Program-made: the position numbers and the translations under genes
Source of the DNA: Reyranella sp.
Lineage (GTDB): Bacteria > Pseudomonadota > Alphaproteobacteria > Reyranellales > Reyranellaceae
Assembly (NCBI RefSeq): GCF_030651995.1
Contig: NZ_JAUSBN010000026.1
Coordinates: 1-64,000, forward strand
Length of the DNA: 64,000 bases
Reading direction: 5' to 3'
The notes under the pieces: model-generated
Told to the model about the DNA's origin: nothing
What the model saw: the letters and a program-made list of their open reading frames with translations, nothing else
Database searches by the model: none
Part shown: piece after piece, positions 12,846 through 64,000 of the stretch
How positions within the stretch are numbered: the stretch's first letter is position 1
Layout: each line of letters begins with the position of its first letter

Positions 12846-15800
12846 ATGAATAAGTCGACGCTGGCCGCCTTGGTTGTGGCCCTCATGCTGGGCTCCGGCA
12901 TTGCGGGTTACCTGATCGGGAGGCCGGGCGATTCCGTCGACCGTCCCGTGGCGACGACCACGACGCCTCCAGCCACAGCTCCCGCCACCCCGCCCCCGGC
13001 GTCGAACCCGCCGGCGCCCCAGACCGCCCAATCGGCCGCACCCGCGCCGCTCGCCCAGCCGCCGGCATTGCCATCCGATCCCTTCTCCTTCCGTCGCGTC
13101 GGTGTCGATTCCAGCCGCAGCGAAGCGGAAGCCTGCCTCGCCTTCAACAAGCCGCTCGCCACCGGCGACGTGAAGTACGGCGACTTCATTCGCATCGAGC
13201 CTGAAGCGAAGACAGCACTCCGCGCCGTTGACGACCGGCTGTGCATCGCCGGCCTCACCTACGGCCAGGATTATACCGTGAAGCTGCTGGCGGGCTTTCC
13301 GGGACGCGACGGCGAGAAGCTGCGCGACGAGCAGAGCGTGAGCGTGGCCTTGGGCGCCCGCCCCGCCGTTGTGAACCTGCCGGGCAAGGGCTTCATCCTG
13401 CCGCGCGGCAGCGCCGCCGGCCTGCCCGTCACGACCATCAACGTCTCCAAGGTCGGCATCTCGGTCTATCGCGTGAACGAGCGCGGCCTCGATCGCTTCT
13501 CCGCCGACCGCTACTACGACGTGGCCTTCCCCGGCTCCGAGCCCATCACCGAGCCGTGGTCACTGCGCAGCTGGCTGAACGGCAGCAACGGCAGCGAGCA
13601 GTGGAGCGGCACGATGGACGTGCGCAACGTGCCCAACCAGGCCGTCGTTACCGCCTTCCCGATCCGCGAGACCATCCAGGACTGGAAGCCCGGCGCCTAT
13701 TTCGTCGTGGTGTGGAATGCCGCCAAGCCACCGTCCCGCGACTATGACGACGACGAGTCGACGGCGGGCGGCGCGGCCGGTCTGTGGGTGATCGACACCG
13801 ACATCGGCCTCACCTCCTTCAGCGGCGACGACGGGCTGAACGTCTTCGCGCGCTCGCTGCAGACCGCCCAACCGCTGGCCGGCATCGAGGTCACCATGCT
13901 GTCCCGTGGGAACGAGCCGATCGGCAAGGTGGTCACCGGCGCCGACGGCCGCGCCTCGTTCGCGGCCGGCCTGCTCAAGGGCACCGGCGCGGCCGAAGCC
14001 GTCGCCGTCATGGCGCAGGATCCGGCGAAGAAGGAATTCTCGCGCCTCGAACTCACCAAGTCGGCCTTCGACCTGTCCGACCGCGGCGTCGACGGCCGGC
14101 CGCAGCCCGGTCCGGTCGATGCCTTCCTCTACACCGAGCGCGGCATCTATCGCCCCGGCGAGACCGTGCAGCTCATGGCGCTGATGCGCGACGATGCAGC
14201 CAATGCGCTCTCCAACCTGCCCGTCACGCTGATCGTCAAGCGCCCGGACGGCAGCGAGTTCACCCGCTTCACCCATGGCCTGCAGGGCCCGGGCGCGATC
14301 GCCCAGGCGATCGACCTGCCGAAGTCCTCGCGGCGCGGCCGCTGGTCGGTCGCCGCCTACATCAATCCCAAGGGTGCGCCGGTCGGCCGTGTCGAATTCT
14401 CGGTCGAGGATTTCGTGCCCGAAAAGCTCAAGGTCGAGCTCACGCCCGACGAGCCGATCATCCGGCCGGGCAGCGTGAACCGTTTCGTCCTCTCGGCCGA
14501 CTTCCTCTATGGCGCCCCGGCGTCCGATCTCGCCGTCGAGGGCGACATGCGCATCACCGTCGACGATGCGCCGTTCCCGGCCTTCGCCAAGTACCGGTTC
14601 GGACCGGAGGACGATCGCGAGAAGTTCGAACCGCCCTTCATCGAGCTGAAGGGCGAGAACACCGACCCGGCCGGCAAGTCGAGCCTCGAATGGGCCGGCG
14701 ACCTCGCCAAGGAGACGGTCCTGCCGCTGCGCGCCCAGATCCAGGCCCGCGTCTTCGAACCGGGCGGTGGCCGCGCCACCAAGACCGAAAAGGCCATGCC
14801 GGTGCGCACCCGCGACACCTATATCGGTGTCCGCCCGACCTTCGAGGGTCGCTATTCCCGCGAGGGCGTCGACACCGAGTTCGATGTCGTTGCGGTCGAC
14901 GCGGCCGGCACACAGGTCGCACGCCCCTCGGTCGAATACCGGATCGAACGCATCACCAACGCCTATCAATGGTTCCAGGTCGATGGTCGTTGGCGCTGGC
15001 AGTCGATCACCAACACGCGGCTGATCACCGCCGACAAGGTGACGCTGAAGGCCGACACGCCGACCCGTCTCTCGCAACGGCTGGACTGGGGCCAGCACAA
15101 GCTCACGGTCATCGACAACGACAAGAACACCTCGACCAGCCTCACCTTCTACGTGGGCTGGTATGGCGGCACGGGCACCGAGGAGGCGCCCGATACGCTG
15201 CGTGTCGCCAGCGACAAGCAGAACTACGCGCCGGGCGACACCGCCCGCCTGCGCATCGAGGCACCGTTCGCCGGCGAGGCGCTGATCGCCATCGCGACCG
15301 ACCGCATCGTGTCCACCCAGTCGGTCCAGGTGCCGGCCGGCGGCACGACGGTCGACATTCCGGTGAAGGGTGAGTGGGGCGCCGGCGCGTATGCTCTCGT
15401 CACGGCCTGGCGGCCTCTGGCGGCCCCGGCCGAGCGCACACCTACGCGCGCGATCGGCGCGACGTGGATCGGCCTCACCCCGGCCCTGCGCACGCTCGGC
15501 ATCCAGATCGGCACGCCCGAGAAGATCACACCGCGGCAGCGCATCGAGGTGCCGGTGAAGGTGTCCAACCTGCAGGCCGGCCAGGAAGCCTTCGTCACCC
15601 TGGCCGCGGTCGACGAGGGCATCCTGCAGCTCACCCGCTACAAGACGCCCAATCCCGCCGACCACTATTTCGGCAAGCGTCGCCTCGGCGTGTCGATGCG
15701 TGACGACTACGGCCGCCTGCTCGACACGCGCGCCGACGAGCTCGGCCGCATCCGGGCCGGCGGCGACGCGGGCGAAATCGGCGGCCTCGACATCGTGCCG

Positions 15801-17816
15801 ACGCGCACCGTTTCGCTGTTCAGCGGTCCGGTGAAGCTCGACGACAAGGGCGAAGCCAGGATCGCCTTCGACATCCCCGACTTCATCGGCCAGCTCCGCT
15901 TGATGGCGGTGGCCTACGACAAGACTCGCGTCGGCTCGGGCGAGCAGCGACTGTTCGTGCGCGATGCCGTCACCGCCGACGTGGTGCTGCCGCGCTTCCT
16001 CGCGCCGAAGGATCTCGGCCGGGTGGCGCTGTCGCTGCACAATGTCGATGGCCAGGCGGGCGATTACCGCGTCACGCTGACGGCCTCGGGGTCGGTCTCG
16101 CTCGAGCGTCCCGTCACCGAGACCAAGCGTCTCGCCGCCAACCAGCGCGAGCTGCTGACCTGGCCGCTGCGAGCGGGCGACGCGGGCTTCGGCAAGGTCA
16201 CGGTCGCCGTCCAGGGGCCGGGCAACTTCGCGGTCCAGCGTGAGTGGGACATCCAGGTGCGGCCGGCGCAGACTCCCAGCGCCGTCGACACGGTGGCGCG
16301 CCTGGCGCCCGGCAACGAGGCCACGGTCGACCGCAACGTGATCGCGGCCTTTGCGCCCGGGACCGCTCAGGTCAGCGCGTCGCTGACCCGCATTCCCGGA
16401 ATCGACGTCGCGGGCCTGCTGCGCGCGCTCGACAAGTATCCGTTCGGCTGCATCGAGCAGACCACCAGCCGCGCCATGCCGCTGCTCTACTACAACGATG
16501 TCGCGCTGCTGGGATACGGCCCCACCGATCCACGGATCAACGAGCGTGTGCAGGACGCAGTCTATCGTGTCGTCGACATGCAGTTGCCCGACGGCTCGTT
16601 CGGCATGTGGGGGCCCTTCTCCACGCCGGCGGCGGAGTGGCTGCAGACCTACGTGCTCGACTTCCTCGTGCGGGCGAACCAGCAGCAGATGGCGGTGCCT
16701 TCCGCATCGCTGCAGCGGGCGCTCGGCTGGCTCAACAGGACCGCCGACAAGCTCTCGCCCAACGCCCAGGCCTATGCCTGGTACGTGCTGGCGAAGTCGG
16801 GCTACGCCGATCCCGGCCGCGTCCGCTACTTCCAGGACACGAAGGCCGCCGAGATGAAGGGCGGCATCGCCTGGGCGATGCTGGCCGCGGCGCTGAACCA
16901 GGTGGGCGAGCCGGGGCGCGGTCGCCTGGCCTTCGCCACAGCCCGCCAGCGCATCGACGAGCGCGATCCGTCCGACTATTACGGATCGCCGCTGCGCAAT
17001 CGCGCCGCCCTCGTCACGCTCGCCGTCGAAGCGGGTGGACGTGAGGCCCTGACGGAGGTGACGAGCCTGGTGGGCGAACGGCTGGCGGCCTCGATCGGCC
17101 TGACCACGACGCAGGAGCAGGCATGGCTGGTGATGGCCGCCCGAGCGATGAGCGGCAGCGCCCAGCTCTCCTATTCCGTGGACGGCCAACCGCGTCAGGC
17201 GGCGGCCGAGCCGGTGACCTTCACCCCGGACGCGGCCGCCCTGGCCCGCGGCCTCAAGCTGCGCAACGACACCGACCGTCCGATCTGGATGCAGGTGACG
17301 GCGCGTGGCGTGCCTCTCGATCCGCAGCCTGCGGCCACGGCCGGAATCAGCGTCGAGCGCGAGTTCCTGAAGTTCGACGGCGAGCCCAGCTCGCTGGGAC
17401 ATGTCGTGCAGAACGAGCGCTTCATCGTCTCGATCTCCGGGCGCAACCTGGAGGGCGGCTACCACGAGGTGGCGCTGCTCGACCTGCTGCCGGCCGGCTT
17501 CGAGATCGAAGCGGTGCTGAATGACGAGACGGCGAAGTCCTTCCCGTTCCTGTCCGACCTCACCGAAACCCGCATTGCCGAGGCGCGCGACGACCGCTTC
17601 TTCGCGTCCTTCAACATGGGAACCCGGCCGTACCAGACATGGTGGGACTCCTCGGCGAAGAACCCGAACTCCTATCACGTTGCCTACATCGTTCGCGCCG
17701 TGACGCCCGGCACCTATGCCGTCCCGGCGACGAACGTTTCCGACATGTACGCACCGCGGGTCTATGGCCGGACGGCGATGCGTACGCTCACCATCGTTCC
17801 GGCGGGCACGAAGTAG
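12846..17816 (+). CDS. Bacterial alpha-2-macroglobulin with thioester motif
   Basis: A 1656-residue periplasmic protease-trap protein of the bacterial alpha-2-macroglobulin (YfhM/ECAM) family. After an N-terminal hydrophobic segment (about 7-25) comes a Pro/Ala-rich linker (35-75), a row of macroglobulin-like domains with a bait region, and the thioester motif G-C-I-E-Q (Cys1202 to Gln1205) inside the alpha-helical domain (Y-P-F-G-C-I-E-Q-T-T-S). The thioester would trap attacking proteases covalently. Unlike the E. coli protein it has no lipobox cysteine, so it is probably held by the uncleaved hydrophobic segment. The ATG at 12846 opens directly on this segment; the frame upstream has no homology. 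It is followed 5 bases on by pbpC, the usual partner. Confidence 0.93.
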   Translation: MNKSTLAALVVALMLGSGIAGYLIGRPGDSVDRPVATTTTPPATAPATPPPASNPPAPQTAQSAAPAPLAQPPALPSDPFSFRRVGVDSSRSEAEACLAFNKPLATGDVKYGDFIRIEPEAKTALRAVDDRLCIAGLTYGQDYTVKLLAGFPGRDGEKLRDEQSVSVALGARPAVVNLPGKGFILPRGSAAGLPVTTINVSKVGISVYRVNERGLDRFSADRYYDVAFPGSEPITEPWSLRSWLNGSNGSEQWSGTMDVRNVPNQAVVTAFPIRETIQDWKPGAYFVVVWNAAKPPSRDYDDDESTAGGAAGLWVIDTDIGLTSFSGDDGLNVFARSLQTAQPLAGIEVTMLSRGNEPIGKVVTGADGRASFAAGLLKGTGAAEAVAVMAQDPAKKEFSRLELTKSAFDLSDRGVDGRPQPGPVDAFLYTERGIYRPGETVQLMALMRDDAANALSNLPVTLIVKRPDGSEFTRFTHGLQGPGAIAQAIDLPKSSRRGRWSVAAYINPKGAPVGRVEFSVEDFVPEKLKVELTPDEPIIRPGSVNRFVLSADFLYGAPASDLAVEGDMRITVDDAPFPAFAKYRFGPEDDREKFEPPFIELKGENTDPAGKSSLEWAGDLAKETVLPLRAQIQARVFEPGGGRATKTEKAMPVRTRDTYIGVRPTFEGRYSREGVDTEFDVVAVDAAGTQVARPSVEYRIERITNAYQWFQVDGRWRWQSITNTRLITADKVTLKADTPTRLSQRLDWGQHKLTVIDNDKNTSTSLTFYVGWYGGTGTEEAPDTLRVASDKQNYAPGDTARLRIEAPFAGEALIAIATDRIVSTQSVQVPAGGTTVDIPVKGEWGAGAYALVTAWRPLAAPAERTPTRAIGATWIGLTPALRTLGIQIGTPEKITPRQRIEVPVKVSNLQAGQEAFVTLAAVDEGILQLTRYKTPNPADHYFGKRRLGVSMRDDYGRLLDTRADELGRIRAGGDAGEIGGLDIVPTRTVSLFSGPVKLDDKGEARIAFDIPDFIGQLRLMAVAYDKTRVGSGEQRLFVRDAVTADVVLPRFLAPKDLGRVALSLHNVDGQAGDYRVTLTASGSVSLERPVTETKRLAANQRELLTWPLRAGDAGFGKVTVAVQGPGNFAVQREWDIQVRPAQTPSAVDTVARLAPGNEATVDRNVIAAFAPGTAQVSASLTRIPGIDVAGLLRALDKYPFGCIEQTTSRAMPLLYYNDVALLGYGPTDPRINERVQDAVYRVVDMQLPDGSFGMWGPFSTPAAEWLQTYVLDFLVRANQQQMAVPSASLQRALGWLNRTADKLSPNAQAYAWYVLAKSGYADPGRVRYFQDTKAAEMKGGIAWAMLAAALNQVGEPGRGRLAFATARQRIDERDPSDYYGSPLRNRAALVTLAVEAGGREALTEVTSLVGERLAASIGLTTTQEQAWLVMAARAMSGSAQLSYSVDGQPRQAAAEPVTFTPDAAALARGLKLRNDTDRPIWMQVTARGVPLDPQPAATAGISVEREFLKFDGEPSSLGHVVQNERFIVSISGRNLEGGYHEVALLDLLPAGFEIEAVLNDETAKSFPFLSDLTETRIAEARDDRFFASFNMGTRPYQTWWDSSAKNPNSYHVAYIVRAVTPGTYAVPATNVSDMYAPRVYGRTAMRTLTIVPAGTK

Positions 17817-17821
17817 GCACC

Positions 17822-19858
17822 ATGCGCCTCAGGCCTCTGCTGGCCGGTCTCGCCGTCGCCGCCACGACCCTGGTGGCGACGGCGCTGACGCTCGACCGAG
17901 TCTTTCCGCCCGACCTGTCGCGCTATCACGACCGGTCGACCGAGGTGGTCGACGCCAACGGCCGGCTGTTGCGCGCCTTCACGACGGCCGACGGCAAGTG
18001 GCGTCTCAAGACGTCGGTCGACGACGTCGATCCGCTCTATCTCGGCCTGCTCAAGGCCTACGAGGATCGCCGGTTCGACTCTCACTGGGGTGTCGATCCG
18101 CTGGCGGCGCTACGCGCGGCCGGCCAGCTCGCCGAGCGCGGGCGCATCGTCTCGGGCGCCTCGACGCTGTCGATGCAGGCCGCCCGCCTGCTCGATCCCC
18201 GGCCGCGCAACTTCACGACCAAGGCCCTCCAGTCGGCCCGCGCGCTCCAGCTCGAGTGGCGTTACTCGAAGCGCGAGGTGCTGGCGATCTATCTGACGCT
18301 CGCTCCGATGGGCGGCAACCTCGAAGGCGTGCGCGCCGCCTCGCTTGCCTATTTCGGCAAGGAGCCACGCCAGCTCAGCGCCGCCGAGGCCGCGCTGCTG
18401 GTCGCCATCCCGCAATCGCCCGAACGGCGCCGCCCCGACCGCGCCTCTGCCGTGGCGCAGGCGGCGCGCGACCGGGTGCTGGCGCGCGGGGTCGAGCATG
18501 GCGTGATCGATGCGCCTCTCCTCGAGATGGCGCGCAGCCGTCCCGCCCCCGATCGCCGGCTCGCCCTGCCGATGCAGGCGCCGCATCTCGCGGCCTGGTT
18601 GGCCGGCCAGTCGCCCGGCACCACCGTGCCGACCACGGTGCGCTACGAATTACAGCAGACGCTGGCCCAGCTGGTGCACGAGGAGCGACGCCAACAGGGC
18701 GATGGCGCCGAGATCGCCATGGTCGTTCTCGACAACCGCACGGGCGGCGTCGTGGCCTGGCTGGGCGGCGACAATTTCTTCGGCCGCACCGGTCAGGTGG
18801 ATCTCGTGCGCGCCCGCCGCTCGCCGGGCTCGGCGCTGAAGCCGCTGATCTACGCCATGGCCTTCGACGACCGCACCCTGCATCCCGAGACCCTGGTCGA
18901 GGATGTGCCGGTGCGCTTCCGCGACTGGCTCCCGCGCAACTTCGATCGCGACCACCAGGGGGCGGTGACGGTGCGCCGCGCCCTCCAGCAATCCCTGAAC
19001 GTGCCGGCCGTGCTGGCGCTGGAGAAGGTCGGCCCGCAGCGCTTCCTGTCGACCCTGCGCACCGCGGGTGTGTCGCCCGGCCTGCCGCCGGGCGACAACG
19101 GCAATTCGCTGGGGGTGGCACTCGGAAGCGCCACGGTCTCGCCGCTCGAGATGGCGGGCCTCTATGCCGGCCTGGCCAATGGCGGCAGCTTCGCGCCGCC
19201 CCAGGTCCGGCGCGATCGGCCGAAGCCCCAGCCGCTCCGCCTCATCGGACCGACCGCCACCTGGTACGTCTCGGACGTGCTGGCCGAGGCGCCGCTTCCC
19301 GAGGGCTTCGCCTCGCTGCCCGTGGCACTTCGCGAGCGCCGCATCGCCTTCAAGACCGGCACGTCAGCGGGCTTTCGCGACGCCTGGGCGGCCGGCTACA
19401 GCACCAACTGGACGGTCGTGGTGTGGGTCGGCCATGCCGACGGCACGCCGCGCCCCGGCCAGCTCGGCCGGCTCTCAGCGCTGCCCATCCTCTTCAAGGC
19501 GTACGGCCGGCTCCCGGCTGAGGACAATCGCACGCTCCGGCCGCCCGCCGACGTCCTCAAGGTCGCGTCGCATCGCGAGCTGCCGCCGCGCATGCGCACG
19601 CTCGCGCCCTACAGCGAGACGAGCGGCGGCCCGCGCATCGCCTATCCGCCGGCCGACGCCCGCATCGAGCTGGCCGCGCGCGAGGCCGTCCCCTTGAACG
19701 CCATGGGCGGCCAGGGTCGCCTGCGCTGGCTGGTCGACGGCCGCCCCCTGGAGGGCTCGCAGTGGGTCCCCGACGGGGCAGGCACCGCCCGCCTCGCCGT
19801 GGTCGACGAAGCGGGTCGTTCCACCTCGGTCACCGTCCGGATCGTAGAGCGGCGATAG
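17822..19858 (+). CDS. pbpC: Penicillin-binding protein 1C
   Basis: PBP1C is a bifunctional peptidoglycan synthase. The 678-residue protein has an N-terminal membrane anchor (about 6-24), a GT51 glycosyltransferase domain with the catalytic Y-E-D-R-R-F and A-S-T-L-S-M-Q motifs, and a transpeptidase domain with S-A-L-K (Ser337, Lys340), S-L-N and K-T-G-T-S. It ends in a PBP1C-type C-terminal beta domain (G-G-P-R-I-A-Y-P-P onwards). The length is a little shorter than the E. coli protein but all catalytic motifs are there. The gene is coupled to the alpha-2-macroglobulin gene, a widespread pairing thought to combine wall repair with protease trapping in the periplasm. Confidence 0.93.
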   Translation: MRLRPLLAGLAVAATTLVATALTLDRVFPPDLSRYHDRSTEVVDANGRLLRAFTTADGKWRLKTSVDDVDPLYLGLLKAYEDRRFDSHWGVDPLAALRAAGQLAERGRIVSGASTLSMQAARLLDPRPRNFTTKALQSARALQLEWRYSKREVLAIYLTLAPMGGNLEGVRAASLAYFGKEPRQLSAAEAALLVAIPQSPERRRPDRASAVAQAARDRVLARGVEHGVIDAPLLEMARSRPAPDRRLALPMQAPHLAAWLAGQSPGTTVPTTVRYELQQTLAQLVHEERRQQGDGAEIAMVVLDNRTGGVVAWLGGDNFFGRTGQVDLVRARRSPGSALKPLIYAMAFDDRTLHPETLVEDVPVRFRDWLPRNFDRDHQGAVTVRRALQQSLNVPAVLALEKVGPQRFLSTLRTAGVSPGLPPGDNGNSLGVALGSATVSPLEMAGLYAGLANGGSFAPPQVRRDRPKPQPLRLIGPTATWYVSDVLAEAPLPEGFASLPVALRERRIAFKTGTSAGFRDAWAAGYSTNWTVVVWVGHADGTPRPGQLGRLSALPILFKAYGRLPAEDNRTLRPPADVLKVASHRELPPRMRTLAPYSETSGGPRIAYPPADARIELAAREAVPLNAMGGQGRLRWLVDGRPLEGSQWVPDGAGTARLAVVDEAGRSTSVTVRIVERR

Positions 19859-42507: not shown

Positions 42508-42894
42508 TCAGAGGCGCGACACCACTCTCTTCAGCTTATCGCGGACCTGCTCGGCTGCCTGCTTGAGGCGGGGATTCTCGACCGCCATCATCGACGCCAC
42601 GGGATCGATCGCCGCGACCTCGACCTTCCCGTCCGGCGTTTCCTGGACCACGACATTGCACGGCAGCATGGTGCCGATGTGGCCTTCGATCTGCAGCGCC
42701 TCGTGGGCAAGCTTGGGATTGCAGGCGCCCAGGATCCGGTAGCGGCGGAAATCGACGCCGATCTTCTTCTTCAGCGTATCGGCAACGTCGATCTCGGTGA
42801 GGACGCCGAAGCCCTCTTCCTTGAGTGCCTCCGTCGTGCGGCGCACCGCTTCGTCGAAACCCGGGCCGAGCGTCGCGCTGATGTAATAGGACAT
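42508..42894 (-). CDS. DUF302 domain protein
   Basis: A 128-residue protein of the DUF302 family, which occurs in sulfur, metal and redox-stress operons. Motifs are Y-Y-I-S-A-T near the N-terminus, E-E-G-F-G-V-L-T-E-I-D-V, the P-x-L-A-H-like C-N-P-K-L-A-H-E-A-L with its cysteine, and G-T-M-L-P-C-N-V-V-V-Q-E. The latter two cysteines could bind a metal or sulfur. Its function is not established. It follows the sulfide:quinone oxidoreductase gene by 13 bases on the minus strand and is the last gene of that operon. Confidence 0.85.
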   Translation of the reverse strand: MSYYISATLGPGFDEAVRRTTEALKEEGFGVLTEIDVADTLKKKIGVDFRRYRILGACNPKLAHEALQIEGHIGTMLPCNVVVQETPDGKVEVAAIDPVASMMAVENPRLKQAAEQVRDKLKRVVSRL

Positions 42895-42907
42895 GTCGTG
42901 TCTCCTT

Positions 42908-44230
42908 TCAGGCCGCGCGATCGGGCGGCCGGGGTTCACCCTGTTCCGGGCGCAGACGGTCGATGCCCAGGACCTTCATCATCAATCGCTCGTATGCCGG
43001 CTCGCCAGCACCACTGCGCACCTTGTGCAGGAAGTATTTCTCGAAGCCGACTTTGGCCACATGCACCCAGTAACCGCGGCCCGCCCAGTTGACGTTTCGC
43101 GGCGGAATCTGAGGCAGCGCGACGAAGGCGACGCCGTCGTTGCCGAAGTCTGCCAGGCAGACGGCATTCCAGGTGGGTTCGCTCGACGGCGTGCGGCCGG
43201 CGATCAGGGCCGCGATGTTCTGCGCCACCGCCGCGACCATCGATTCGATCATGTAACCGGTCTTGGGAACGCCGACCGGCACCGCGGTCTGCTCGTAGGG
43301 CGGGATGGCGATACAGACACCGACAGCGAAGACGTTCCCGTAAGCTGGGTTGCGCTGGTGCTTGTCGACCAACACGAAGCCGCGCGGATTGGCGAGGCCC
43401 GGCACCCCCTTGCCGTCCTCTCCCATCAGGCAGGAGACGCCGCGGAACGCCGGGATCAGCATCGCGAGCTTGGCCGGAAAGCGATGCTGCGGGCCGGGCT
43501 TGCCGTCCGCCACCATCTCGGTGCATTCGACCGCATCCGCCTCGACCCGGTCGATCCGGGCGCTGGTCACCCACTTGATGTCGTGATCGCGCAACACCGA
43601 TTCCAGCAGGCCCTTTGTGTCGCCGACCCCGCCCAGCCCGAGATGGCCGATATAGGGCTCGGCGGTGACGAATGTGATCGGCACGCGGTTGCGAATCTTG
43701 CGCCGGCGCAGGTCGGTGCTCAGCATCAGGGCGAATTCGTAGGCAGGACCGAAGCAGGAAGCGCCCTGCACGGCGCCGACGACAATCGGACCGGGGTCGG
43801 CGCAGAACTGGTCCCACCGGTCCGCCGCCGCTTCTGCATGATCGACGTGACAGACCGAGAGGCTGTGTGCGTCCGGACCCAGGCCGGGAACCTCATCGAA
43901 GGCAAGTGCCGGGCCGGTCGCAATCACCAGATAGTCGTAGGAGATGCGGCGGCCGTCGTTCAGCTCGATGGCGTTCTCGGCGGGATGCAGGCGCTTCGCA
44001 CCGCTGGCATCGAAGCCGATACCGAGCCTCTCCAGCACCCCGGGGAGATGGACCTTGATGTCTTCGGGCTTGCGCCACCCCAGGGCGACCCAGGGATTGG
44101 ACGGCACGAAGTGGAACCACTCGGAATCGGACACGACGGTGATGTCCGCTGCGCGGCCGACCACGGTCCGCAGTTCGTACGCCATCGAAATTCCGCCGAT
44201 TCCAGCCCCGACGACGACGATCTTCGGCAT
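42908..44230 (-). CDS. sqr: Sulfide:quinone oxidoreductase
   Basis: SQR oxidises hydrogen sulfide to sulfane sulfur and passes electrons to the quinone pool at the membrane. The 440-residue flavoprotein has the FAD fold G-A-G-I-G-G (8-13), and all three redox cysteines of the type I enzymes: Cys127 (S-V-C-H-V-D-H-A), Cys159 (G-A-S-C-F-G-P-A-Y-E-F) and Cys358 (N-A-V-C-L-A-D-F-G). The V-P-V-G-V-P-K-T-G quinone/FAD loop and the C-terminal amphipathic F-E-K-Y-F-L-H-K helix are also present. The first two cysteines have the same numbers as in the Rhodobacter enzyme. Its ATG is 151 bases after the DUF2892 gene; the operon is led by an ArsR gene. Confidence 0.9.
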   Translation of the reverse strand: MPKIVVVGAGIGGISMAYELRTVVGRAADITVVSDSEWFHFVPSNPWVALGWRKPEDIKVHLPGVLERLGIGFDASGAKRLHPAENAIELNDGRRISYDYLVIATGPALAFDEVPGLGPDAHSLSVCHVDHAEAAADRWDQFCADPGPIVVGAVQGASCFGPAYEFALMLSTDLRRRKIRNRVPITFVTAEPYIGHLGLGGVGDTKGLLESVLRDHDIKWVTSARIDRVEADAVECTEMVADGKPGPQHRFPAKLAMLIPAFRGVSCLMGEDGKGVPGLANPRGFVLVDKHQRNPAYGNVFAVGVCIAIPPYEQTAVPVGVPKTGYMIESMVAAVAQNIAALIAGRTPSSEPTWNAVCLADFGNDGVAFVALPQIPPRNVNWAGRGYWVHVAKVGFEKYFLHKVRSGAGEPAYERLMMKVLGIDRLRPEQGEPRPPDRAA

Positions 44231-44381
44231 GGCATCCTCCGATCTTCAGACCAACAGCGTTTCACATCCAGTGGTAGCGGTCTTTGCGATGAATCAAGGA
44301 ACCCCGGCGCCCAGCGTCCATGCTGCATCGATGAAGCACAGCCGCCCCATCGAGCGCAGCGAGGTCATATGGCTGCGGGCG

Positions 44382-44585
44382 TCAGGAGAAGGCGGTACCG
44401 GCCTTGAATCCGAGGCGCTTGAAGATCATCGCCGCGGGACAGAATCCACTGAACGCGGCCTGCACGAGGTTGAGCCCGACGAAGGCGGTGAACAGCAGCC
44501 AGTAGGGGCTGTGGAAATGGCTCAGCACGAGGCTGACCAGGATCATCATTCCGGCAAAGGCCATCACGGCACGGTCGATCGACAT
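44382..44585 (-). CDS. DUF2892 membrane protein (YgaP-like transmembrane domain)
   Basis: A 67-residue protein with two membrane helices (about 8-25 and 29-47) and the motif G-F-C-P-A-A-M-I-F-K-R-L-G at the C-terminal side, characteristic of DUF2892. In E. coli this domain is fused to the rhodanese YgaP, which is controlled by the sulfide-sensing ArsR protein YgaV. Here it stands alone, 18 bases after an ArsR gene of the same class and upstream of SQR. A role in sulfur transfer at the membrane is therefore likely but inferred. Confidence 0.88.
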   Translation of the reverse strand: MSIDRAVMAFAGMMILVSLVLSHFHSPYWLLFTAFVGLNLVQAAFSGFCPAAMIFKRLGFKAGTAFS

Positions 44586-44603
44586 GGTTGTCTCCTCCTC
44601 ACG

Positions 44604-44912
44604 TTACCGGCGATGCGCCGGTCGACAATAGACACCTTGCAGAGCACCGATCACCTCGCCGACGCTGCTGTCGGCCAGCGAATAGTGGATCGTCTGCGAC
44701 TCCCGGCGCGCCTTCACCAATCCGGCGTCGCGCAGCCTGGCGAGATGCTGCGACAGCGCCGACTGGCTGAGCCCGACGATGGGTTCAAGTTCACCCACGG
44801 TGCGTTCGCCGTTCACGAGCTCACACAGGATGATCAGACGCCGTTCGTTCGCGATCGACTTCAGGAAGGAAGCCGCCTCGACGGTGCGGGAACGAAGCTC
44901 CTCTATATTCAT
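44604..44912 (-). CDS. ArsR-family regulator, SqrR/BigR-like persulfide sensor
   Basis: A 102-residue winged-helix repressor: N-E-R-R-L-I-I-L-C-E-L, the recognition helix S-Q-S-A-L-S-Q-H-L-A-R-L-R and the wing R-R-E-S-Q-T-I-H-Y-S-L-A. It has exactly two cysteines, Cys30 in helix alpha2 and Cys96 at the C-terminal helix, 66 residues apart. That is the spacing of Cys41 and Cys107 in SqrR and of the pair in BigR/YgaV, which form a tetrasulfide bridge with reactive sulfur and then release DNA. The metal-binding ArsR motif E-L-C-V-C-D is absent. The ATG at 44912 fits the family; it faces an AT-rich divergent promoter region. Confidence 0.9.
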   Translation of the reverse strand: MNIEELRSRTVEAASFLKSIANERRLIILCELVNGERTVGELEPIVGLSQSALSQHLARLRDAGLVKARRESQTIHYSLADSSVGEVIGALQGVYCRPAHRR

Positions 44913-44914
44913 AG

Positions 44915-44937
44915 TTGCTAATTTAGTTTTTGCTAAT
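44915..44937. promoter_or_regulatory. Probable ArsR operator in the divergent promoter region
   Basis: In the 73 bases between the divergent ArsR (start 44912) and adaptor (start 44986) genes, TTGCTAAT occurs twice (44915-44922 and 44930-44937). The half sites also form an inverted pair TTAG-N6-CTAA (44923-44936) and an overlapping CTAA-T-TTAG (44918-44926). The region is strongly AT-rich against GC-rich surroundings. Binding here would silence both directions. Confidence 0.65.
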
Positions 44938-44985
44938 ATATATGTCAAGCCCGCCGCAAGGAGGGCCGTCACTTAGGAACGCAAC

Positions 44986-45954
44986 ATGATCCGTATGACC
45001 GCCGCCGCCACGCTTCTGCTGGCGGGCTTCCTCTCACCCGCCGCCGCCCAGCAGACCGTCACCCGGCAGCAGGTCGACGACCGGAAGGCCGTCATCGCGA
45101 CGGTGGAACCCATCCGGGAGCTGGTTGCCCGCGCGCGCATCGGCGGCACGATCGTCGCGCTCTCCGGGCGCGAGGGCGATCAGGTGGCCGCCGGAGACCG
45201 CATTGCCCTCGTCGTCGATCCCAAACTCGCCCTGCAGATCCAGGCGCTCGAATCGCGCATCCAGGCGCAAAGCGCGGCCCGCGAGCAGGCCCAGATCGAC
45301 CTGAACCGCATCGAACAATTGCGGACGTCGGGCACCGTCTCCCAGGCCCAGCTCGATCAGGCACGCACGCGGCTCAACATGGCCGAACGGACTTATCTGG
45401 CGCTGCGTTCGGATCGCGAGGTCGTCGAGCAGCAATCGACCGAGGGCGCCGTTCTGGCGCCGGCCTCGGGCCGCGTGCTCAAGGTTCCCGTCTCCGTCGG
45501 CAGTGTCGTGCTCCCGGGCGAGACGATCGCTACCCTGGCCACCGACAACTACATCCTGCGCCTGCAGCTTCCCGAACGGCACGCCCGGTTCATGAAGGCA
45601 GGCGACGAGATCCTCGTCGGATCACGCGGCCTCCAGCAGCAGGACCAGGAGACGCTGCGCCCGGGCCGCGTGCGGCTGGTCTATCCGCAGATCGACCAGG
45701 GCCGGGTGATTGCGGATGCCGAAGTCGACGGACTCGGGGACTTCTTCGTCGGCGAACGCACGCGGGTCTACGTCACCACCGGCAAGCGCGACGCGCTGGT
45801 GGTGCCGGCCGAACTCGTCTACCGCCGCTACGGCGTCAGCTACGTAAAGCTGAAGAAGGGCACCGAGGTCGTGGTCCAGCCCGGACTGCCGGTCGACGGC
45901 GGAATCGAGATACTGTCGGGGCTCAACGAGGGCGACGTGGTGGTCCTGCCATGA
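44986..45954 (+). CDS. RND efflux pump periplasmic adaptor protein (HlyD/MFP family)
   Basis: A 322-residue periplasmic subunit linking an inner-membrane RND pump to an outer-membrane channel. The signal peptide runs to about residue 22 (M-T-A-A-A-T-L-L-L-A-G-F). Then come the lipoyl-like half motif (G-G-T-I-V-A-L-S-G-R-E-G-D-Q-V-A-A-G), an alpha-helical hairpin (about 85-145), the second lipoyl half (A-P-A-S-G-R-V-L-K-V-P-V) and the beta-barrel part. No lipobox is present. It overlaps the pump gene by four bases and is divergent from the sulfide-sensor operon. Confidence 0.88.
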   Translation: MIRMTAAATLLLAGFLSPAAAQQTVTRQQVDDRKAVIATVEPIRELVARARIGGTIVALSGREGDQVAAGDRIALVVDPKLALQIQALESRIQAQSAAREQAQIDLNRIEQLRTSGTVSQAQLDQARTRLNMAERTYLALRSDREVVEQQSTEGAVLAPASGRVLKVPVSVGSVVLPGETIATLATDNYILRLQLPERHARFMKAGDEILVGSRGLQQQDQETLRPGRVRLVYPQIDQGRVIADAEVDGLGDFFVGERTRVYVTTGKRDALVVPAELVYRRYGVSYVKLKKGTEVVVQPGLPVDGGIEILSGLNEGDVVVLP

Positions 45955-48900
45955 AGCTCGGCATTTCCGGCGCGCTGACCCGCGCCTCCATCTCCTCGCC
46001 CCTGACCCCTCTCTTCCTCGTGGCCGCAGTGCTTGTCGGGGCCCTGGCCTTGCTGTCGCTGCCGCGCGAGGAGGAGCCGCAGATCAGCGTCCCGATGGTC
46101 GACATCCAGGTGGCGGCCAACGGATACAAGGCCAGCGACGCCATCGAACTGATCACCAAGCCGCTCGAGGATATCGTCAAGGCGATCAACGGCGTCGAAC
46201 ACGTCTATTCGTTCACCCAGGACGACGCCGTGCTGGTGACGGCGCGCTTCCTCGTGGGCACGTCGGAAGATACCGCCCTGCTGCGCATCCACGAGAAGAT
46301 CCGGGCCAACATCGTCGATCTGCCGAAGGGCATTCCCGAGCCGCTGATCGTCGGCCGCGGCATCAATGACGTGGCGATCATTGCCCTGACGCTCGAACCG
46401 AAGCCTGGCGCGGCGGCGCGCTGGAACGACAACGGCCTGTTCCAGATCGCCGACGAACTGCGCCACGAACTCGTCAAGACCGACGATGTCGGGCTCAGCT
46501 ATATCGTCGGCGGCAGCCCCAACCAGATCCGCGTCGAACCCGACCCGGAACGCCTGGCGCTCTACGGCATCACGCTCAACCAGCTCGTCGACAAGCTGGC
46601 CAATGCCAACCGGTCCTTCGTGGCCGGCGCGTTCCGCCAGCTCAACCGCACCGTGCCCGTTGTGGTCGGACAGACCCTGCAGGGCGTACCCGACGTCGGC
46701 CTGCTCCTGCTGACGTCGCGCGATGGCCGTCCCGTGTACGTCAAGGACGTCGCCAGCATCGTGGTCGGCGCCGCCGAACCCGGCCACCGGACCTGGACAC
46801 TGACCCGCGGCGCTTCGGGAGAACTCGAGACCCGGCCCATGGTGACGCTCGCCTTCGCAAAGCGCAGCGGCGCCAACGCGGTCATCGTCGCCGACCAGAT
46901 CCTGGAGCGGCTGAAGTCGGTGCAGGGCGCCCTGGTGCCCGACGACGTCGCCGTCACGGTCAGCCGGAACTATGGCGAGACGGCAACCGAAAAGGCCGAC
47001 GAACTCCTGTTCCATCTGGCCCTCGCGACCGTTTCGATCGTCCTGCTGATCGCGATCACCGTCGGCTGGCGAGAAGGCATCGTCGTCCTGGTGGTCATCC
47101 CGACCACGATCCTGCTCACCCTCTTCGCTTCGTGGCTGATGGGTTACACCATCAACCGCGTCAGCCTGTTCGCCCTGATCTTCTCGATCGGCATCCTGGT
47201 CGACGATGCGATCGTCGTGGTCGAGAACATCGTGCGGCACTGGCAGGCGCGCGGAGGCGCCGATCTCAAGACCACCGCGATCGAGGCGGTTTCGGAGGTC
47301 GGCAATCCGACGATCGTCGCCACGCTCACCATCATCGTGGCTCTCCTGCCCATGATGTTCGTGAGCGGCCTGATGGGCCCCTACATGAGCCCGATCCCGG
47401 CCAACGCCTCGATGGCCATGATCTTTTCGTTCTTCGTCGCCGTCGTCATCACGCCATGGCTGCTGTACCGCGTCGCCGGACGCCATTTCGCGAAGGCATC
47501 GCCGGCCGCGGGGGCAGCCCACGGCCATGGCGAGGGAGGCGTGCTCGGCCGGCTCTTCCTCAGGATCGCGCGACCGCTGCTACGGGGACGCCGACGCTCG
47601 GGATTGTTCCTGCTGATTGTCGGCCTCGCCACGGCCGCGGTCTGCGTGCTGTTCTTCACCCGCGACGTCGCGGTCAAGCTGCTGCCCTTCGACAACAAGT
47701 CCGAGCTGCAGGTCGTGGTGGACCTGCCTCAGGGCACGACTCTCGAAGAGACCGACCGTTTCCTGATGGCGGCGGCAAATCGCCTGAAGGACCTGCCGGA
47801 GATGACCTCCATCCAGGTCCATGCCGGGACCGCAGCGCCGTTCAATTTCAACGGCCTGGTGCGACACTCCTATCTCCGGGGATCGCCGCAGCAGGGCGAC
47901 CTCCAGATCAATCTCCTGCCCAAGGACAAGCGCGCCCGCGCCAGCCACGCGATCGCCCTCGACGTGCGCAAGCGACTGGACGGCCTGGACCGGCCCGTGG
48001 GCAGCGTGGTCAAGGTCGTCGAGGTCCCGCCCGGCCCACCGGTCCTCGCCACCCTGCTGGCCGAGATCTACGGCCCCGACGAGAAGACGCGCCGCGAAAC
48101 CGCAATGAAGGTCCGCGAGGCCTTTCAGAAAGTGCCGTTCGTCGTCGATCTCGACGATACGTTCCGCCCCCCCGGCGAACGCCTGCGCTTCTCGATCAAC
48201 CAGGAGAATCTCGAATTCTACGGCGTCGAGGAGCAGGCGGTGTACGACACCATCGCCGCCATCATCGGCGGGGTGAAGGTCGGCTACTCGCAGCGCAGCC
48301 ACAATGCGAAGCCCATCGAGATCGTGGTCAAGCTGCCGCGCAGCGCCGAATCGCTGAGCGAACGCATCCTGTCGACGCCGCTGCCCGCCGGCGGCACCCG
48401 CCGCCAGGGGGCGAACGTCGAGCTGGGCGACGTCGTGACGGTCAAGCGCGAGCCCGCTTCCTACACGCTGTTCCGTCGGAACGGTCGCTTCGCCGAGATG
48501 GTGCAGGCCGAGGTGGCCGGCCGTTTCGAAGCCCCGATCTACGGCATGCTGGCCGTCGAGGACGAGATCGCCAGGCTCGACTGGGGCAAGGCCGGGCCAC
48601 CCCGGATCTTCTATCACGGCCAGCCGACCGACGAGTCCCGTCCCGCTCTGCTCTGGGACGGTGAATGGGAGGTGACCTATGTCACCTTCCGCGACATGGG
48701 CGCCGCCTTCGGCGTGGCCATCCTCGGCATCTACCTGCTGGTCGTGGCGCAGTTCGGCTCCTACCGCCTGCCGCTGGTGATCCTGACTCCGGTGCCGCTC
48801 ACCCTCATCGGCATCGTGCTGGGTCACTGGATGTTCGGCGCGCCGTTCACCGCGACCTCGATGATCGGCTTCATCGCCCTCGCCGGCATCATCGTGCGCA

Positions 48901-49181
48901 ACTCGATCCTGCTGGTCGATTTCATCCAGCATCGTCGGGCCGAGGGTGCCGCCCTGCGCGACGCCCTGCTCGAAGCCGGCGCGATCCGCTTCAAGCCGAT
49001 CTTCCTGACGGCCGCCGCCGCCATGATCGGCGCCGCCTTCATCCTCACCGACCCGATCTTTCAGGGGCTGGCAATCTCGATGGTGTTCGGGCTCGCGTCC
49101 TCCACGGCCCTCACGGTGCTGGTGATCCCCGCCATCTACGTCTGGCTGCGCGACGACGGGAAGGATGCGAGCGCGCCTTGA
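45951..49181 (+). CDS. RND efflux transporter permease (AcrB/AcrD/AcrF family)
   Basis: A 1076-residue proton-driven inner-membrane pump. It has the twelve-helix, two-large-loop layout: a helix at about 20-38, the first periplasmic loop, then the helix 4 proton-relay aspartates in I-L-V-D-D-A-I-V-V-V-E-N (Asp418, Asp419). The helix 10 position of the AcrB lysine is arginine (I-I-V-R-N-S, Arg983). The substrate could be metal ions or hydrophobic compounds; the divergent sulfide-sensing regulator makes a sulfur-related substrate possible. No outer-membrane channel gene is near, so it must use one encoded elsewhere. Confidence 0.92.
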   Translation: MKLGISGALTRASISSPLTPLFLVAAVLVGALALLSLPREEEPQISVPMVDIQVAANGYKASDAIELITKPLEDIVKAINGVEHVYSFTQDDAVLVTARFLVGTSEDTALLRIHEKIRANIVDLPKGIPEPLIVGRGINDVAIIALTLEPKPGAAARWNDNGLFQIADELRHELVKTDDVGLSYIVGGSPNQIRVEPDPERLALYGITLNQLVDKLANANRSFVAGAFRQLNRTVPVVVGQTLQGVPDVGLLLLTSRDGRPVYVKDVASIVVGAAEPGHRTWTLTRGASGELETRPMVTLAFAKRSGANAVIVADQILERLKSVQGALVPDDVAVTVSRNYGETATEKADELLFHLALATVSIVLLIAITVGWREGIVVLVVIPTTILLTLFASWLMGYTINRVSLFALIFSIGILVDDAIVVVENIVRHWQARGGADLKTTAIEAVSEVGNPTIVATLTIIVALLPMMFVSGLMGPYMSPIPANASMAMIFSFFVAVVITPWLLYRVAGRHFAKASPAAGAAHGHGEGGVLGRLFLRIARPLLRGRRRSGLFLLIVGLATAAVCVLFFTRDVAVKLLPFDNKSELQVVVDLPQGTTLEETDRFLMAAANRLKDLPEMTSIQVHAGTAAPFNFNGLVRHSYLRGSPQQGDLQINLLPKDKRARASHAIALDVRKRLDGLDRPVGSVVKVVEVPPGPPVLATLLAEIYGPDEKTRRETAMKVREAFQKVPFVVDLDDTFRPPGERLRFSINQENLEFYGVEEQAVYDTIAAIIGGVKVGYSQRSHNAKPIEIVVKLPRSAESLSERILSTPLPAGGTRRQGANVELGDVVTVKREPASYTLFRRNGRFAEMVQAEVAGRFEAPIYGMLAVEDEIARLDWGKAGPPRIFYHGQPTDESRPALLWDGEWEVTYVTFRDMGAAFGVAILGIYLLVVAQFGSYRLPLVILTPVPLTLIGIVLGHWMFGAPFTATSMIGFIALAGIIVRNSILLVDFIQHRRAEGAALRDALLEAGAIRFKPIFLTAAAAMIGAAFILTDPIFQGLAISMVFGLASSTALTVLVIPAIYVWLRDDGKDASAP

Positions 49182-63427: not shown

Positions 63428-63679
63428 ATGCCGTTTATCGCTCGCTCACCCAAGCAGTTGGGGAATGTCATTCAACGCACCCGCAAGCAGCTTGGCTTTA
63501 CGCAGACCCAACTCGCCAATATTGCCGGTTTGCGTCAGGAAAAAGTGTCCATAATCGAAAACGGTCAAGATGGCGCGAAGCTCTCGACGATCTTCGCGCT
63601 ACTCGCCGCACTCAACCTCGAAATTACTGTTGGGGAAAGGTCCGGCAAGCTCGCCAAAGGCATCGAGGACATATTCTGA
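63428..63679 (+). CDS. hipB: Antitoxin HipB, XRE-type helix-turn-helix
   Basis: An 83-residue Cro/C1-type DNA-binding antitoxin. The helix-turn-helix is in L-G-F-T-Q-T-Q-L-A-N-I-A-G-L-R-Q-E-K-V-S, followed by I-E-N-G-Q-D-G-A-K-L-S-T-I-F-A-L-L-A-A-L. It neutralises the adjacent toxin and represses the operon. The ATG at 63428 has a GGGAG site; a longer frame upstream is only AT-rich non-coding sequence. The stop overlaps the start of hipA by one base (TGATG), which enforces linked translation. Confidence 0.88.
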   Translation: MPFIARSPKQLGNVIQRTRKQLGFTQTQLANIAGLRQEKVSIIENGQDGAKLSTIFALLAALNLEITVGERSGKLAKGIEDIF

Positions 63680-64000
63680 TGAGCCGGCGCAAAACACATA
63701 CGCCACTCAATGTGCTGATAAATAATCGCCTCGTGGGTTGCCTGCGGAAAGAGGCTAGTGGGGCGATCCTGTTCCAATACGACCAAAGCTGGCTCGATTG
63801 GGAGCCCAGCTTTGCTATCTCGCTTTCGCTCCCCATGCGGGAGACGGCCTATACTGGCGCGCTGGTGATAGCGGTGTTCGACAATCTGCTCCCCGACAAC
63901 CCGAACGTCCGCAAGCGCATCGCCGAGCGCATCGGCGCTCAAGGAACCGATTACTACAGCCTGCTCGAAAGCATCGGACGCGATTGCGTCGGTGCGATGC
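63679..64000 (+). CDS. hipA: Toxin HipA, serine/threonine kinase, N-terminal part (runs off the window)
   Basis: The first 107 codons of a HipA-type kinase toxin; the rest lies to the right. The N-terminal subdomain is recognisable: L-N-V-L-I-N-N-R-L-V-G-C-L, I-L-F-Q-Y, F-A-I-S-L-S-L-P-M-R, then V-F-D-N-L-L-P-D-N-P-N-V-R-K-R-I-A-E-R. The Couple_hipA domain fits well. HipA phosphorylates the glutamyl-tRNA synthetase and induces dormancy; the kinase motifs themselves are not in view. It is coupled to hipB, and base use is less GC-rich than in neighbouring genes, pointing to acquisition by transfer. Confidence 0.85.
   Translation, partial: MSRRKTHTPLNVLINNRLVGCLRKEASGAILFQYDQSWLDWEPSFAISLSLPMRETAYTGALVIAVFDNLLPDNPNVRKRIAERIGAQGTDYYSLLESIGRDCVGAM

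Follow-up and report, generated by a model that had tools for sequence, protein, structure and literature searches.

A putative sulfane-sulfur-sensing ArsR regulator and its predicted operator link SQR and RND efflux genes in a probable two-locus regulon of Reyranella

Organization of the locus

The window analyzed here, a stretch of 64,000 nucleotides, is part of contig C89 of the genome of a strain of Reyranella, a bacterium of soil and water. An initial annotation made from the letters of this DNA had described a six-gene neighborhood with a divergent RND pair, and all six genes were found and assigned coordinates. On the minus strand, the order outward from the intergenic spacer is a gene for an ArsR-family regulator of the SqrR/BigR/HlyU type (44604..44912; 102 amino acids), one for a DUF2892 or YgaP-like transmembrane protein (44382..44585; 67 amino acids; PF11127, E = 3e-12), one for an SQR resembling type I (42908..44230; 440 amino acids; Pyr_redox_2 domain and a phmmer match to 3sz0, E = 4e-138), and one for a DUF302 protein (42508..42894; 128 amino acids; Pfam PF03625, E = 2.4e-27), with gaps of 18, 151, and 13 bases between them. 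As the start of the DUF302 gene, the ATG at 42894 agrees better with homologues than the GTG at 42939, as homologues of the protein begin at the same point. On the plus strand lie the genes for an RND periplasmic adaptor, or membrane fusion protein (44986..45954; 322 amino acids; TIGR01730 above its cut-off), and an RND permease with a complete RND fold (45951..49181; 1,076 amino acids), which overlap by four bases. The start codons of arsR and the adaptor gene are separated by 73 bp. No gene for an outer-membrane channel was found at the locus; many RND pumps borrow such a channel, which is encoded elsewhere.

The SQR aligned end to end with the enzyme of Acidithiobacillus ferrooxidans (residues 4 to 430; E = 4e-138), and C127, C159, and C358 fell on the three catalytic cysteines of that enzyme, in agreement with the three redox cysteines previously reported from the sequence. 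Full-length similarity and the three cysteines place the protein among the type I SQRs, with sulfide-dependent quinone reduction as its predicted activity. A DUF302 gene is also contained in the sqr plasmid operon of Synechocystis (PMC5061849). In locus L097 (G000, contig C17, positions 1420 to 2676), a flavoprotein that appears to carry a Tat signal resembles a flavocytochrome c sulfide dehydrogenase subunit, and its gene sits between two c-type cytochrome-like genes; this may be a second sulfide-oxidizing system.

Other features of the window were recorded. Positions 12846 to 19858 carry a bacterial alpha-2-macroglobulin gene followed by a gene for a PBP1C-type penicillin-binding protein, a known pairing. 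A predicted protein of 808 residues with no Pfam match, apparently membrane bound at its start, is encoded on the minus strand at 301 to 2727. At 63428 to 64000, a small HTH protein gene precedes a frame that the end of the window truncates; together they look like a HipB/HipA-type pair.

The regulator and its two cysteines

The ArsR protein has cysteines at positions 30 and 96, a spacing of 66 residues. This pattern had been put forward in the initial annotation and was borne out, as both columns are invariant across 33 aligned regulators reaching down to 36% identity to the ArsR of the window; only 14 columns of this alignment, which has a mean column identity of 55%, are invariant. Wherever both positions could be read, the two cysteines were kept in the regulator beside the pump, with the sole exception of locus L069, where the ArsR gene is found at the opposite side of the pump and its product has neither cysteine. 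The closest solved structures were HlyU (2.5e-23), followed by NolR, YgaV, and the BigR entry 3pqj. With the NCBIfam model for BigR (NF040642) the protein scored 86.8 bits, below the cut-off of 155, and it is therefore best described as a relative of BigR that falls outside BigR in the strict sense. The cysteines, the structural relatives, and the operator described below together assign it to the sulfane-sulfur-sensing SqrR/BigR/HlyU subfamily of ArsR proteins, which supports the view that the gene encodes a sensor of sulfide or sulfane sulfur.

A predicted operator in the divergent spacer

Within the spacer, an AT-rich element adjoining the arsR start codon was found to be conserved across genera. 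It consists of TTGCTAAwTTAG, six bases, CTAATATA, and then TGTCAAG; its complement provides the TTGACA element in the sigma-70 promoter predicted for arsR (44920..44948, minus strand; TTGACA, 17 bases, TAAATT). This promoter matches 10 of 12 consensus positions, where 0.1 such sites would be expected from shuffled sequences. Conservation, genome searches, and a match to the HlyU site of 19 of 25 bases delimited a predicted operator, TTGCTAATTTAGnnnnnnCTAATATA (44915..44940, plus strand), which overlaps the promoter. The HlyU site of Vibrio cholerae used for this comparison is one determined by DNase footprinting (PMC4330345); none of 1,000 shuffles reached the same agreement, and the HlyU-like site occurs once in the window. 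In the region from 44910 to 44948, the -10 element of arsR ends approximately 8 bases before the ATG, so the arsR transcript may be nearly leaderless.

When up to three mismatches to the 26-base operator were allowed, exactly two sites were identified in the 5.5-Mb genome, both perfect, one in the window and the other on contig C51. Across 61 Reyranella genomes there were 46 operator sites, compared with 2 for a reversed control. Thirty operator loci were examined; a dioxygenase or adaptor gene neighbored 29 of them, and an ArsR gene neighbored 28. In genomes G319, G338, G346, G351, and G353, two operator matches overlap on opposite strands, shifted by 11 bases relative to each other, which suggests that the operator is doubled or more symmetric at some loci.

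The predicted operator fills the 73-bp spacer, in support of the earlier proposal that both arms share a control region. Near the operator, no sigma-70 promoter was recognized that could serve the pump arm, and we therefore infer repression of this arm by ArsR from the geometry of the short spacer.

A second locus with a persulfide dioxygenase

The second perfect copy of the operator, on contig C51, belongs to a locus where the gene of another two-cysteine regulator faces one for a Blh-type persulfide dioxygenase; the regulator gene precedes genes for a rhodanese-YgaP protein and a TauE-like exporter. The dioxygenase scored 376.9 bits against the dioxygenase part of NF040641 and remained below the full-length cut-off of that model because the fused transferase domain is absent. 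The usual persulfide dioxygenase had been described as missing, which is true of the six-gene locus but does not extend to the genome; genome-wide absence was rejected, given the Blh-type gene behind an identical operator. As the two loci have the same perfect operator, C51 is probably the second locus of the regulon to which the SQR and pump genes are predicted to belong.

The regulator type of the window is also that of the bigR operon of Xylella and Agrobacterium, which comprises BigR, Blh, and TauE and as described has no SQR and no RND pump (PMC5823870). The C51 locus has a BigR-type regulator, Blh, and TauE parts in common with that operon and adds the rhodanese-YgaP gene.

Association of the pump with sulfur genes in relatives

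A scan of named genomes identified 80 loci with permeases 64 to 98% identical to that of the window, mostly in genomes bearing alphaproteobacterial names, beside which ArsR, DUF2892, and SQR genes recur. In six of them (L059, L060, L067, L076, L079, and L088), genes for SQR, DUF2892, adaptor, and permease share a strand, with the ArsR gene divergent, and the pump is accordingly predicted to lie inside the sulfide operon itself. Using profile searches, 147 permease loci were collected, and counts were made on the 70 alphaproteobacterial orthologues with 4 kb of flank on each side. At least one sulfur-module gene was present within 5 kb of 65 of these 70 orthologues, and two or more in 56; the genes were DUF2892 (n = 57), ArsR (n = 54), SQR (n = 39), rhodanese (n = 25), DUF302 (n = 10), and dioxygenase (n = 7). 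Both arms thus co-occur in relatives, as the initial annotation had required of its proposal, and the pump very likely forms part of the sulfur module and of the defense against reactive sulfur. Permease relatives of 36 to 39% identity had the module in 10 of 11 cases, nearly all from one family and hence not independent, and a clade of relatives with 42 to 46% identity had module genes in none of seven. None of 11 other RND loci of this genome had a module gene within approximately 6 kb. On the permease tree, the module label required 20 changes, compared with a mean of 45 after shuffling, a clustering that near relatives inflate. A chance neighborhood was rejected on the basis of the orthologue counts, the 11 control loci, and the tree, which argue that the linkage between pump and sulfur module is not fortuitous.

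The arrangement had been called unusual. Dozens of Alphaproteobacteria share it, however, as do relatives farther away, and RND pumps next to regulators of this kind were published in 2025 (PMC12423496), as was a sulfide-induced RND-SQR operon of Azospira in another study (PMC5358917).

The same kind of cluster was seen in plasmid records of Azospirillum, Paracoccus, Methylocella, and Rhizorhabdus, and a Shinella plasmid carries the pump without the sulfur cluster. On plasmid 1 of Paracoccus denitrificans PD1222 (L190), genes for a dioxygenase, DUF2892, YeeE/YedE, a sulfur transferase, ArsR, the adaptor, and the permease are clustered together with an FAD/NAD(P) oxidoreductase that is an SQR candidate; there the parts form a single cluster with added cytochromes, whereas in Reyranella they are split over two loci. 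Plasmid pIBU218 of Rhizorhabdus wittichii (L192) combines the module with a TolC-family gene, rhodanese, an SQR candidate, and catalases. This plasmid has been typed as conjugative, and the module can therefore probably move between hosts. Cytochrome bd oxidase genes were observed near the pump module in several loci (cydAB-like by sequence in L018 to L021, annotated in L192 and L193), which would be consistent with a sulfide-tolerance island.

Among the 61 Reyranella genomes, the pump was identified in 16 and SQR in 14, all 14 lying within those 16 (Fisher's test, 5e-12, kinship ignored). The two genomes with the pump and no SQR (G309 and G311) still have ArsR and DUF2892, as well as the operator in front of the pump. 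On this basis, the predicted core unit is ArsR, DUF2892, adaptor, and permease, with SQR, DUF302, rhodanese, and dioxygenase as variable partners.

Features of the permease

A full ACR_tran domain (PF00873, E = 3e-135) and the adjacent adaptor gene identify the protein as an RND permease. D418 and D419 form the invariant DD pair in TM4, and TM10 has an invariant arginine (R983) in the place of the proton-relay lysine of drug pumps, a residue that characterizes drug pumps and is not common to all RND proteins. The permease was below the cut-off of both family models applied, scoring 260 bits against 701 for the heavy-metal model TIGR00914 (CusA/CzcA) and 227 against 940 for the HAE-1 multidrug model TIGR00915. 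It contains no conserved cysteine, and its conserved methionines, except 866 and 916, lie in or beside membrane segments. A metal-pump reading is unsupported by these cut-offs and residues, and nothing in the sequence points to the metal export that the initial annotation had allowed for. An AlphaFold model (pLDDT of 81, pTM of 0.74) was used as a query for a fold search, in which the nearest structures were AdeB (Z = 45.1), AcrB (Z of about 44), and CusA (Z = 43.3), with AcrD also close; the modeled fold appears nearly equally near drug pumps (AdeB, AcrB, and AcrD) and the metal pump CusA.

Proposed function and alternatives

On balance we favor an account in which a reactive-sulfur regulon is split into two loci, of which this one is the half with SQR and efflux, its pump expelling sulfane sulfur. 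At rest, an ArsR dimer would occupy the operator at 44915 to 44940, covering the arsR promoter and blocking the pump genes, which begin at a distance of 73 bp. Upon oxidation of sulfide to persulfide or polysulfide, C30 and C96 would be bridged by sulfur, and the sulfur-bridged repressor would leave the operator, turning on both arms, DUF2892-SQR-DUF302 on one side and adaptor-permease on the other. The C51 regulator and its dioxygenase, rhodanese, and TauE genes would probably respond jointly. Sulfur-responsive repression of both arms is the component in which we have high confidence. SQR would convert sulfide to sulfane sulfur, of which the dioxygenase and the exporter would handle the cytoplasmic share, and the RND pump would take its substrates out of the periplasm and the inner membrane's outer leaflet. 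The pump would most likely expel polysulfide chains, elemental sulfur, or persulfidated small thiols, and the expelled sulfane sulfur would exit by a shared outer-membrane channel.

RND pumps take up their substrates on the side of the periplasm, where such products of sulfide oxidation would be hard for a cytoplasmic dioxygenase to reach. For this reason, sulfane-sulfur products such as polysulfide are our best guess for the cargo, which we offer tentatively. SQR was present near 39 of the 70 orthologous pumps, and with so many pump loci having none, the cargo need not be a product of SQR. It is also conceivable, if speculative, that a dedicated RND subfamily extrudes periplasmic sulfane sulfur and complements the persulfide dioxygenase under the same operator.

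The main rival, which we consider unlikely, is that an exporter of the multidrug or lipid type was recruited to the sulfide response, where it would remove hydrophobic compounds that arise from sulfide damage, such as adducts of quinones or lipids, or other toxins common in sulfidic habitats, and not sulfur. The permease model is as close to AcrB, AdeB, and AcrD as to any pump, and the module often occurs without SQR, with G309 and G311 retaining pump and operator but no SQR; even so, the dedicated association of such pumps with genes for SQR, rhodanese, DUF302, and dioxygenase, which extends to distant relatives, suggests a sulfur-linked cargo. It is quite improbable that metal ions, or metal-sulfide complexes accumulating under sulfide, are what the pump exports, even though CusA is among the close folds and export of metal sulfides was proposed by the authors of a study of Azospira for the efflux pumps induced there (PMC5358917); the TIGR00914 score, the placement of the conserved methionines, the lack of a conserved cysteine, and the two-cysteine sulfur pattern retained by the regulator all speak against it. 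Very improbable, finally, is an ArsR that governs its own operon only, the pump being a separately controlled neighbor kept by shared habitat, as might be read from the lack of a recognized sigma-70 promoter for the pump arm near the operator, since the operator fills the spacer, SQR and pump occur in one operon in several lineages, and the two are co-inherited across the genus.

Relation to known systems

RND pumps encoded next to such regulators or together with SQR have precedents. According to the main-text survey statement of Li et al. (2025), sulfane-sulfur ArsR regulators appear to act on nearby RND pumps and on TauE and YeeE transporters (PMC12423496). As at the Reyranella locus, the systems named in that statement have a two-cysteine ArsR beside RND efflux genes, and the regulators have further targets among sqr, pdo, rhodanese, or TauE genes (PMC12423496); the predicted operator, the probable two-locus regulon, and the phylogeny of the pump are additions of the present analysis to it. 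Rhodobacter capsulatus SqrR is likewise a two-cysteine, sulfide-responsive ArsR protein with SQR as a target, and the SqrR paper searched here (PMC9995734) names neither an RND pump nor an efflux transporter among the targets. In Azospira suillum PS, Dsui_3440 to Dsui_3443 (an unknown gene, an RND pump, SQR, and an adaptor) were strongly induced by sulfide and flagged by Bar-seq, and a DUF2892 gene was induced approximately 10-fold; deletion of the operon did not slow perchlorate-dependent sulfide oxidation (PMC5358917). This operon shares with the window the grouping of SQR, RND pump, and adaptor genes, but it differs in its adaptor-SQR-pump order, and no ArsR is mentioned (PMC5358917). Such arrangements are thus familiar as a type; what the present analysis has worked out is the predicted operator, the probable two-locus regulon, and the orthologue group.

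Little is known about the ways in which bacteria, outside the cytoplasm, dispose of polysulfide and elemental sulfur. The cited work on sulfide-linked RND pumps demonstrated no cargo, and our searches of the literature on DUF302, SqrR, sulfane sulfur, and RND found no report of one. With an orthologous group of pumps, a precise predicted operator, and a genus in which the presence of the module varies, the question of the cargo becomes directly testable. More generally, the locus indicates that a single site for a sulfur sensor can couple oxidation with efflux.
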